Under the pieces are notes generated by a model that saw nothing but the letters and a program-made list of their open reading frames with translations, was not told the DNA's origin and did no database searches. From a virus, in the IMG/VR virus record IMGVR_UViG_3300020477_001177, positions 1 to 20,821 of that record: DNA of 20,821 bases, one strand, 5' to 3'. Below are positions 10,816 to 19,821 of this stretch, one piece after another. The stretch's first letter is position 1. Each line of letters begins with the position of its first letter. The position numbers and the translations under genes were made by a program.

Positions 10816-11205
10816 ATGGTAGCAAGACCAACAAGAAAAAGAATGTATAGAACCATGCAAGGTCGTATGGTTGATATTGAAAAATTAAGAGCGGCTAACG
10901 AATCAGTTAGAGCAATTGGTAATATGAACGTTAATGCTAGAGGTGATATTTTAGGACCAAGTGGACAAGTTGCAGTTCCAAAAGAAAAAGTAATTGCAAA
11001 ATATTATGAACAACCACGTGGTAGAGCTGACGACACACAAACTAGAAGACCTGCTAGAAGAGTTGTACAATCAAAACCAGTACAAAAAATGACTCCAGTT
11101 GCTTCAAAACCAACACCTCAACCAAAAGCATCAAAACCAGATGCACCGGCAGTAGTTACACCTGAGAAAAAAGGTATTGACGCGGCACTTGACGGGTTAG
11201 AATAA
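10816..11205 (+). CDS. Hypothetical basic protein with Pro/Lys-rich tail, 129 aa
   Basis: A 129-residue protein. The N-terminal 70 residues are basic and look conserved (RTMQGRMVDIEKLRAANE, then GNMNVNARGDILGPSGQ). Residues 75-115 form a low-complexity Arg/Pro/Lys linker (KPTPQPKASKPDAPA), and the end is acidic (DAALDGLE). Similar N-termini occur in T4-like marine phages as unknowns (memory). The linker plus acidic tip suggests a flexible adaptor. A clear SD (AGGAG, 10805-10809) precedes ATG 10816. The next gene's -35 box lies within its last codons. Confidence 0.7.
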   Translation: MVARPTRKRMYRTMQGRMVDIEKLRAANESVRAIGNMNVNARGDILGPSGQVAVPKEKVIAKYYEQPRGRADDTQTRRPARRVVQSKPVQKMTPVASKPTPQPKASKPDAPAVVTPEKKGIDAALDGLE

Positions 11206-11217
11206 TTCTTATATAAT
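11189..11217 (+). promoter_or_regulatory. Sigma70-like promoter for the groES-like gene, leaderless arrangement
   Basis: TTGACG (11189-11194), a 17-bp spacer and TATAAT (11212-11217) match the sigma70 consensus closely. The -10 box ends 8 nt before ATG 11226, which puts the transcription start at or next to the start codon. No Shine-Dalgarno lies between. The -35 is inside the upstream coding region. Confidence 0.72.
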
Positions 11218-11225
11218 ACTTCTAT

Positions 11226-11669
11226 ATGGGACAAATAGAAGATTTACAGCAACGAGGCTTTGGATCACACGGTGGTAAACAATATACCATAAATCACGAC
11301 ATCACTCCACTTAAAAAAAGAGTATTAGTATCTCATATGCACTTTGGAGAAACAAAATCTGCAGGTGGTATTATACTTGTTGACGATGACGGATCTCAAG
11401 CAGGTATTCACCCACGTTGGGCAAAAGTATATGCTATTGGCAAAGAACAAGAAGATGTTACAGTTGGACAATGGGTAATGGTTGCACATGGCAGATGGTC
11501 TCGAGCATTAAAAGTTAGTAAAGACGGTGTTGAACTAGAAGTAAGAATGATCGACGAGAACGATATTTTACTTGTATCAGACGAAGAACCAGAACAAAAT
11601 AGAAAACAAGCCGGATATGTCAACACAGGTGGGCACCAACAAATGACATCACTTCCGGGCAATGACTAA
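11226..11669 (+). CDS. GroES/gp31-like cochaperonin
   Basis: A 147-residue protein related to the GroES family. After a 25-residue N-terminal extension the family's first strand appears (ITPLKKRVLVSHM), followed by the mobile-loop region GETKSAGGIIL (residues 41-51), which contacts GroEL. The barrel strands RWAKVYAIGKE, VTVGQWVMVAHGRWS and MIDENDILLV follow. It is longer than bacterial GroES (about 97 residues), with a polar C-terminal extension. In T4, gp31 replaces host GroES so that GroEL can fold the major capsid protein; the same role is likely here. The gene has its own host-type promoter with a leaderless start, suggesting early expression. It overlaps the zinc-finger gene by 8 nt. Confidence 0.9.
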   Translation: MGQIEDLQQRGFGSHGGKQYTINHDITPLKKRVLVSHMHFGETKSAGGIILVDDDGSQAGIHPRWAKVYAIGKEQEDVTVGQWVMVAHGRWSRALKVSKDGVELEVRMIDENDILLVSDEEPEQNRKQAGYVNTGGHQQMTSLPGND

Positions 11670-11916: not shown

Positions 11917-12295
11917 AAAAATTAAACTTAAAAGAATGTTTGTGCCTATAGACAAACTTGTCACTATGGCCGAACTAGGGTTAGGTGCAAAACGACCACT
12001 CAACAAAGAAAAGAGAGGTTGGATAAACAAACTGAAAAAACAATCAGAACCGTTAGATCCAATACTTGTAACACCCATAAAAGATTCCGGTTATTTTCTC
12101 TTAACAGATGGATGGCATAGAGTACAGGCCGCAAAAGCAATGAAAGAAAAAGAAATTGAAGCACTACCATTACCGGCAGATATAGGATTAAGCATGGCCA
12201 AGGCAAATAAAATTTTACGAGACATTGATCGGCAATATGGTTTTAAATTAGAATGCAGTGAAATTATAGGACAATGGGCATTTTACAAAGATTGA
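11903..12295 (+). CDS. ParB/Srx-like N-terminal domain protein, 130 aa
   Basis: A 130-residue protein with the ParB/sulfiredoxin fold signature: VPIDKLVTM, LDPILVTPIKD, then LLTDGWHRVQAAKAM (DGWHR at about residues 69-73) and KEKEIEALPL. In ParB-type proteins the G.HR loop binds nucleotide (CTP or ATP). The helix-turn-helix and dimer domains of full ParB are absent, so this is not a partition protein. Phage proteins of this type include stand-alone nuclease-like or NTP-binding domains. ATG 11903 is preferred to the TTG at 11897. It ends where the next promoter's -35 begins. Confidence 0.8.
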   Translation: MKRTKKIKLKRMFVPIDKLVTMAELGLGAKRPLNKEKRGWINKLKKQSEPLDPILVTPIKDSGYFLLTDGWHRVQAAKAMKEKEIEALPLPADIGLSMAKANKILRDIDRQYGFKLECSEIIGQWAFYKD

Positions 12296-12320
12296 CAATA
12301 AACCATAATTTATATATTAT
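12292..12320 (+). promoter_or_regulatory. Sigma70-like promoter before the small membrane gene and denV
   Basis: TTGACA (12292-12297), a 17-bp spacer and TATTAT (12315-12320) form a near-consensus promoter. The -10 ends 6 nt before the GTG at 12327, so the transcript would begin at about the start codon. It would also serve denV, the 72-residue unknown and gp44. Confidence 0.65.
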
Positions 12321-12326
12321 TAGTAT

Positions 12327-12503
12327 GTGATATTTAAAATTGCAACATTACTTAATTCTATTTGTATAATTTTAATGTTATTCATAATATCAAAACAATA
12401 TAGCGATATGGCTATGTTATGGGATATGATAACTGAAATTGATTTGATGTTTAAAGATATTATTACAAGGATAACAGAAGGAAACGCAGGACAACAAATA
12501 TGA
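12327..12503 (+). CDS. Small single-pass membrane protein, 58 aa
   Basis: A short reading frame fills what would otherwise be a 200-nt gap. Starting at GTG 12327 it encodes 58 residues with one clear transmembrane stretch near the N-terminus (ICIILMLFIISKQY), then a polar amphipathic part (MITEIDLMFKDIITRITE). Its TGA (12501-12503) overlaps the ATG of denV in the ATGA form seen elsewhere in the window, which supports it as a real, coupled gene. No ATG is available before the hydrophobic part; a later ATG at 12375 would lose half of the membrane segment. Function unknown. Candidates are a superinfection-exclusion or membrane-modifying peptide. Confidence 0.62.
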   Translation: MIFKIATLLNSICIILMLFIISKQYSDMAMLWDMITEIDLMFKDIITRITEGNAGQQI

Positions 12504-18421: not shown

Positions 18422-18450
18422 ATTGACATTCTGTCAATCTATTATATAAT
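18422..18450 (+). promoter_or_regulatory. Consensus sigma70-like promoter with operator-like palindrome before dnaJ
   Basis: TTGACA (18423-18428), a 16-bp spacer and TATAAT (18445-18450) are perfect hexamers. ATTGACA (18422-18428) and TGTCAAT (18432-18438) form an exact 7-bp inverted repeat with a 3-bp centre, covering the -35 box. The -10 ends 7 nt before ATG 18458, with no SD between, so the mRNA would be leaderless. A repressor or activator bound at the palindrome would control the dnaJ operon. Confidence 0.75.
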
Positions 18451-18457
18451 ATTATAA

Positions 18458-19297
18458 ATGAAGAACTATTACGACATCCTTGGTGTGTCTGAAAATGCAT
18501 CTAATGATCAAATTAAAAAAGCATTTAAAAATATTGCTAAAAAAGAACACCCGGATCGTGGCGGAAATGAAAAAGTATTTAAAGAGGCCAACGAAGCATA
18601 CGACACATTAAAAGATACTCAAAAAAGACAAGAATACGATACAATAAGAAAATACGGACAACCAGGTACTGGTGGAAATTTTAGTTTTAGATCTGGTGAC
18701 TTTTTTGGAGAAGATATATTTGAAGATTTTTTTTCTGGGTTTGGTGGTCCTGGTATGCGAACAAGAACATTTCGATCAAGACAACGTGGAAACAAATCAA
18801 TTAATGTACGTATGTCAATATCAATAAAAGAAGCAATGATGAATCATGAAAAAACTATATCATATACATTGCCTTCAGGTAAAGAAGAATTTGCAACAGT
18901 AAAAATACCAGCTGGAGTACAACACGGTATAACTTTTAGATATAAAGGAATGGGAGATAATTCACTTAAAGGTGTGCCACGTGGAGACTTAATGGTACAG
19001 ATGAGTGTGTTAGATTCAGATGGTTATACAAGACAAGGAAATGATTTATATACTGAAAAAACTATTGATTGTTTTCAAGCAATACGTGGTTGCGAACTAA
19101 ATTTAAAAACATTAACTGACTCTATAATAAAAGTACAAGTACCTGCAGGTACACAACCAGGAACATTAATTAATTGTAAAGGTCAAGGTATGCCTATACA
19201 CAAAACGTTAAATATTAGAGGAAACCTTTATGTAAAAATAGTGGTTTTAATTCCACAACTATCGGCGGGAGATTTAAAAAAAATAAAAGATCTATGA
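18458..19297 (+). CDS. dnaJ: DnaJ-type cochaperone without zinc finger (class B)
   Basis: A 279-residue Hsp40. The J domain covers residues 1-65, with HPD at 31-33, which stimulates the ATPase of the host DnaK. A short Gly/Phe-rich linker follows (about 68-100, GQPGTGGNFSF, FFSGFGGPG). The CxxCxGxG zinc-binding repeats of DnaJ are missing, and the two C-terminal substrate-binding domains come directly (VKIPAGVQHGITFRYKGMG, VQVPAGTQPGTLINCKGQGMP). This is the layout of CbpA. It opens an operon with deformylase, a small unknown and ClpA, and its promoter is host-like and leaderless, suggesting early expression. Its TGA overlaps the next ATG (ATGA). Confidence 0.94.
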   Translation: MKNYYDILGVSENASNDQIKKAFKNIAKKEHPDRGGNEKVFKEANEAYDTLKDTQKRQEYDTIRKYGQPGTGGNFSFRSGDFFGEDIFEDFFSGFGGPGMRTRTFRSRQRGNKSINVRMSISIKEAMMNHEKTISYTLPSGKEEFATVKIPAGVQHGITFRYKGMGDNSLKGVPRGDLMVQMSVLDSDGYTRQGNDLYTEKTIDCFQAIRGCELNLKTLTDSIIKVQVPAGTQPGTLINCKGQGMPIHKTLNIRGNLYVKIVVLIPQLSAGDLKKIKDL

Positions 19298-19821
19298 TAC
19301 AAGTATTTCAATATCCACACAAAACATTAAGCGAAGTAAGTTCTGATTGGACTAAAGACGATTCAATCGAAGGTTACAACGATATAGAAAAATTTGAATA
19401 CGATATGATAAAATTAATGATAGAAAGCAGAGGAATGGGTTTAGCGGCAAATCAAATAGGAATTACCAAACGATTTTTTGCAATTGGTAGTGAGACATTT
19501 GACAAACTTAAAAAACCTGTTATAATGTGGAATCCGTCTGTCGTTAGAGAAAGTGAAGAAAAAGTTTTAGACGAAGAAGGATGTTTAAGTTTTTTAGGTG
19601 TGTTTGTTAAAGTACTTAGACCAAAAAAGGTAACAGTTAAATGGCAAAACATAAGAGGAGAAACATTGTTAAATCATCTAGACGGAATGGAATCAAAGTG
19701 CTTTCAACACGAACTAGACCACTTAAACGGTATAACGTTCAATCAAAAAGTTTCAAAGCTATCATGGGAAATGGCAAAGAAGAGGGCAGAAAAGATAAGA
19801 AAAAAATATGGAAAATCTTAG
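19294..19821 (+). CDS. def: Peptide deformylase
   Basis: A 175-residue metalloenzyme that removes the formyl group from new proteins' N-terminal methionine. All three motifs are present: GMGLAANQ (residues 47-54), EGCLS (95-99, with metal ligand Cys97) and HELDH (139-143, ligands His139 and His143, catalytic Glu140). Length matches bacterial enzymes, so it is longer than the trimmed cyanophage versions, which usually lack the C-terminal helix; here a basic helix is retained (SWEMAKKRAEKIRKKYG). Starts in ATGA overlap with dnaJ. In cyanophages the enzyme is thought to favour turnover of photosystem proteins; with no photosystem gene here, general protein processing is more likely. Confidence 0.93.
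   Translation: MIQVFQYPHKTLSEVSSDWTKDDSIEGYNDIEKFEYDMIKLMIESRGMGLAANQIGITKRFFAIGSETFDKLKKPVIMWNPSVVRESEEKVLDEEGCLSFLGVFVKVLRPKKVTVKWQNIRGETLLNHLDGMESKCFQHELDHLNGITFNQKVSKLSWEMAKKRAEKIRKKYGKS

Follow-up and report, generated by a model that had tools for sequence, protein, structure and literature searches.

Sigma70-like promoters placed directly before start codons point to leaderless groES and dnaJ mRNAs in a marine phage lineage

The window analyzed here, the whole 20,821-nt stretch of viral DNA (IMG/VR record IMGVR_UViG_3300020477_001177), carries a groES-like gene whose start codon lies immediately downstream of a sigma70-type promoter, together with a DnaJ-like chaperone gene in a similar arrangement (Table 1). 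The groES product scores 31.3 bits against the Cpn10 domain PF00166 (cut-off 21.1), identifying it as a GroES/Cpn10 homolog, and the spacing of its two promoter boxes falls within the 16-18 nt of a sigma70-type promoter. The promoter that the earlier note had placed before this gene, without a Shine-Dalgarno (SD) sequence, proved exact in coordinates and spacing, and the SD match was zero for both groES and dnaJ. The window GroES also has a conserved 24-aa N-terminal extension and a C-terminal extension, both absent from cultivated phage homologs. A peptide deformylase gene (19294-19821) directly follows dnaJ and overlaps its end, an order also found in Sinorhizobium phage Phosso; no tRNAs were found in the window, G001 or G002.

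Table 1. Promoters and genes discussed in the window.
Feature	Position	Strand	Remark
Upstream ORF, 129 aa, phrog_14844	10816-11205	+	3' end contains the groES -35 box
-35 box TTGACG (5/6 matches)	11189-11194	+	inside 3' end of upstream 129-aa ORF
Spacer of groES promoter, 17 nt	11195-11211	+
-10 box TATAAT (6/6 matches)	11212-11217	+	17 nt after -35
8-nt gap, -10 box to groES ATG	11218-11225	+
groES-like gene, 147 aa	11226-11669	+	ATG 11226-11228, without SD
Promoter TTGACA-17-TATTAT (11/12)	12292-12320	+	before 58-aa ORF
58-aa ORF, doubtful gene	12327-12503	+	GTG start 6 nt after -10
Promoter TTGACA-16-TATAAT (12/12)	18423-18450	+	before dnaJ
DnaJ-like chaperone, 279 aa	18458-19297	+	ATG 7 nt after -10, without SD

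The groES ATG is the only plausible start of the gene, because an in-frame TAA within the TATAAT box (11214-11216) closes the frame upstream. Across 62 distinct sequences, variation in codons 2-24 was distributed 113/35/360 over codon positions 1/2/3, and this pattern from codon 2 onward supports translation from the same ATG; the 5' AUG of the groES RNA is predicted to be unpaired. Transcription usually starts at the seventh base after the -10 box. For the window groES this would be the A at 11224, giving a two-nucleotide leader (AU), and a start at the A of the ATG, the ninth base, would give none. Leaderless bacterial genes of the 'TA-led' type (Zheng et al. 2011, PMC3160421) have a -10-like box whose second base lies 8-14 nt before the transcription start and ~12 nt before the start codon; the corresponding A of the groES box (11213) lies 13 nt before the ATG, and groES and dnaJ share with TA-led genes the lack of an SD.

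Two ATG-start genes in the window have a promoter with at least 11/12 matches at a gap of 5-8 nt, whereas chance predicts 0.006, and a count of two never arose in 500 dinucleotide shuffles. The earlier note had counted two loci besides groES; both exist, and the dnaJ promoter stands firm, with its arrangement conserved in relatives. The third site is a weak leaderless case, since it precedes a GTG-initiated ORF without a homolog among the loci compared, and since the equivalent promoter stands before the clamp-loader ATG in three related loci (L002, L118 and L027). Promoter adjacency as a general property of the clamp loader was rejected, being present in only some relatives.

We then compared groES loci across IMG/VR, where 181 relatives were confirmed and 80 of these 181 fetched, with more added by a profile search. 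After removal of duplicates, a promoter (at least 9/12 matches, -10 ending 5-9 nt before the ATG) was present in 91 of 106 distinct phage loci, with a gap of 8-9 nt in 80 of the 91. The 15 loci without an adjacent promoter were the more distant groES homologs and cultivated jumbo phages, and ten of them had an SD match of at least 4 nt. On a poorly resolved groES tree (147 columns, 106 rows) the trait is clustered and requires two changes. The promoter also persists where the upstream sequence is unrelated (L009, L031, L033, L048, L050, L443, L445, L450 and L455), indicating that it was re-formed or retained independently of the neighboring gene.

Contigs of the same lineage were reassembled from the sequence pieces retrieved; all are fragments and share ancestry with each other, and their genes were predicted with a simple caller based on codon usage. 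In 11 related contigs, 56 of 1,036 genes (~5%) had a promoter with at least 11/12 matches at a gap of 5-8 nt, against a mean of 0.12 and a maximum of 2 in dinucleotide shuffles; the earlier note had itself named enrichment over shuffled sequence as the check on its proposal, and the enrichment is there. The gap distribution peaks sharply at 6 nt (59/113), and strong promoters in lineage contigs show a peak of ATGs 5-7 nt downstream, a peak not seen in another phage, G015. When boxes were selected on the -10 alone (gap 5-8), a -35 box stood at a spacing of 16-18 nt in 52%, compared with 4% and 3% at wrong spacings. Contigs with a promoter-adjacent groES contained 1-8 strict pattern matches in 34-197 kb, and G023 contained eight in 115 kb even though its groES lacks an adjacent promoter, so the architecture extends beyond groES. 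A/T-rich intergenic DNA could in principle yield TATAAT-like strings before start codons by chance: weak promoter-like sites across the window show no overall excess (100 compared with 95 expected), and one recurrent strict sigma70-like match (G009:13362, G012:36605, G004:19240 and orthologs; TTGACGAAAACAACAAAAAGTTGTATAATG...) proved to be a false positive within conserved coding sequence (DENNKKLYNEN). Such a compositional artifact is refuted both by shuffled sequence and by the spacing of the -35 boxes, and A/T-rich Pelagibacter genomes have no excess either, leaving chance a vanishingly small probability. At the level of sequence, the promoter-adjacent pattern is genuine, runs through the whole lineage and reaches far beyond what the earlier note saw.

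Other phages place their promoters differently. Promoters with at least 11/12 matches lay at gaps of 5-8 and 15-40 nt in 81 and 31 cases in the lineage, versus 3 and 43 in four comparison phages (G024 and parts of 121Q, HTVC008M and Atu_ph07; Fisher p = 4e-15, a value that overstates independence because the contigs are related), and the leadered promoters of these four mostly come with an SD. Strict matches numbered 0-3 in each of six cultivated jumbo phages (genomes of 287-490 kb), none in T4, one in HTVC008M, three in P-SSM2 and two in Melnitz-1. The jumbo phages RaK2, 121Q, PA5oct, SCTP-2 and Atu_ph07 encode a GroES homolog (38-47% identity) that likewise lies upstream of the clamp loader, but there groES lacks an adjacent promoter and strict promoter-adjacent starts number 0-3 per genome. 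Pelagibacter is the only genus-level host hint for the lineage, and the pattern is absent from its genomes (four strict matches in ~14.6 Mb, not above a reversed-pattern control). Matches to the groES were found in two MAGs, assigned to Ca. Pelagibacter and Rickettsiales, which may reflect co-binned phage contigs.

SD usage separates the promoter-adjacent genes from the rest: an SD match of at least 4 nt precedes 4% of them, an absence that is partly forced because the -10 box occupies the SD site, versus 44-53% in other gene classes. Many genes without a promoter-adjacent start carry SD sequences, and ~44% of genes in the window bear out the earlier statement that a clear SD precedes other genes. 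These figures bear on the alternative that groES is expressed mainly from a longer upstream polycistronic mRNA, translated by coupling to the upstream ORF or through a bS1-bound, unstructured A/U-rich leader, with the adjacent promoter secondary. The gene does follow same-strand genes, with 20 nt between the upstream stop codon and its ATG, and the order Pol III alpha-like gene, unknown ORF, GroES, clamp loader is common to the window, 121Q and RaK2; in cultivated relatives groES sits inside this order and lacks an adjacent promoter. We nonetheless consider this account unlikely, given that the promoter is kept or re-formed with different sequences where the upstream region differs, and that 47% of genes lying close behind a neighbor, on the same strand or not, have an SD, far above the promoter-adjacent value. 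Read-through from upstream genes could still supply an additional, leadered groES mRNA.

The earlier note had cast the class as early chaperone mRNAs, a description that does not survive the gene list. Its narrower proposal, that leaderless starts serve to time or favor translation of such mRNAs, is unsupported in that form, and the sequence reveals no effect on timing. With 10/12 promoters and gaps of 4-9 nt added, promoter-adjacent genes comprise 28 protein families; alongside GroES and DnaJ, members of the class include UvdE (UV endonuclease), an Rv2179c-like exonuclease, a phosphoribosyltransferase, a cupin, a glycosyltransferase, primase, dNMP kinase, NUDIX, a T4-like portal, ThyX, radical SAM, clamp loader, ClpS, ribonucleotide reductase small subunit, a 5'-3' exonuclease, an ATP-dependent DNA ligase, a cell-wall hydrolase, bS21 and many unknowns. 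Such mixed functions, from DNA repair and nucleotide metabolism to the portal, speak against an early-chaperone class. They also fit a compaction scenario, in which a shortage of space has crowded promoters up to the genes, with leaderless mRNA accepted as a side effect that has no regulatory role; dense gene packing, with the groES -35 box inside the upstream ORF, points the same way, whereas other dense jumbo phages (121Q, Atu_ph07 and G024) keep SD leaders. We give this scenario about an even chance, and it is a reading of purpose that is compatible with leaderless transcripts as the best explanation.

Our preferred interpretation, to which we assign a probability of about 0.85, is that transcription would start near the ATG and yield leaderless groES and dnaJ mRNAs that host ribosomes would translate from the 5'-terminal AUG without an SD. 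Host-type sigma70 promoters would put the transcription start at, or at most ~3 nt from, the A of the start codon; at the predominant gap of 6 nt this A is the seventh base after the -10 box, the canonical +1, and at the 8-9 nt typical of groES, no leader and a leader of 2-3 nt are equally likely. Comparative sequence evidence strongly supports leaderless transcription or leaders of 0-3 nt, presumably by host sigma70 RNA polymerase; a phage sigma-70 region 2 domain was not found in 10 contigs. Promoter recognition by host sigma70 and a host capacity for leaderless translation are assumed here. Other leaderless mRNAs are known to be translated from an AUG at their very 5' end (PMC9031893, PMC12340547), and studies of such mRNAs suggest that initiation may involve intact 70S ribosomes.

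Leaderless mRNAs might further constitute a distinct translational class, favored during a stage of infection in which ribosomes or initiation factors change, possibly through a phage bS21, and letting proteostasis and nucleotide genes escape SD-dependent control; we hold this to be improbable. The related proposal that the phage itself switches translation at some point in infection, shifting ribosomes or the initiation-factor balance (for example through its own bS21) in favor of leaderless mRNAs, is similarly doubtful. Two related contigs encode bS21, one copy being promoter-adjacent, and phiYS40 is reported to raise IF2 and lower IF3 (PMC3594737). However, bS21 was found in just 2 of the 10 contigs, all of which are fragments, one copy is not promoter-adjacent, no IF3 match exceeded the cut-off, and SD-led genes remain common. 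Of the two bS21-like genes, that at G023:67681-67929 (L494:7681-7929, - strand) is preceded by its own 12/12 promoter, whose end lies 8 nt from the ATG, and that in G017 lacks tight promoter spacing. A weak IF3 C-terminal-like match (G017:113726-113845; 21.8 bits, below the cut-off) lies in a 252-aa frame.

The lambda cI mRNA made from PRM is a known counterpart, transcribed from a sigma70 promoter and starting at the A of its AUG. The same start is predicted for the marine lineage, although cI is a single repressor gene and the marine phages have a lineage-wide class; leaderless cI is also covered in PMC9031893. TA-led genes and the -10-adjacent ORFs of Deinococcus-Thermus (PMC12340547) likewise have a -10 box ~10-12 nt before the start codon and no SD, but are cellular rather than phage genes, and the Deinococcus motif works with a -10 alone, whereas the marine phage -10 boxes are accompanied by a strong -35. 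Thermus thermophilus phage phiYS40, with leaderless middle and late transcripts (reviewed in PMC3594737 from its refs 155 and 156), is the nearest phage precedent: it too is a large lytic phage with many transcripts lacking leaders. Its transcripts were studied experimentally and its host phylum is rich in leaderless genes, whereas the marine lineage is known from sequence alone, uses full -35/-10 promoters and has a suggested host genus, Pelagibacter, without the pattern. A literature search on leaderless transcripts in jumbo or marine phages yielded only general or Thermus-related papers.

If confirmed, these observations would mean that many mRNAs of a widespread marine phage group begin at the start codon, unlike those of its sister phages and of its only suggested host genus, and comparison of sister phage lineages would offer a test of the long-standing problem of why bacteria that use SD sequences have leaderless mRNAs at all. 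For annotation, gene finders that rely on SD sequences may misplace promoter-adjacent starts. Contrasting with the leaderless class, a conserved leadered promoter with a strong SD, CAGGAGTGTAC, lies at G001:132236-132300 (L112:12236-12300, - strand) and precedes a 366-aa protein resembling an AAA+ ATPase; similar sites occur in G009, G012 and G017.
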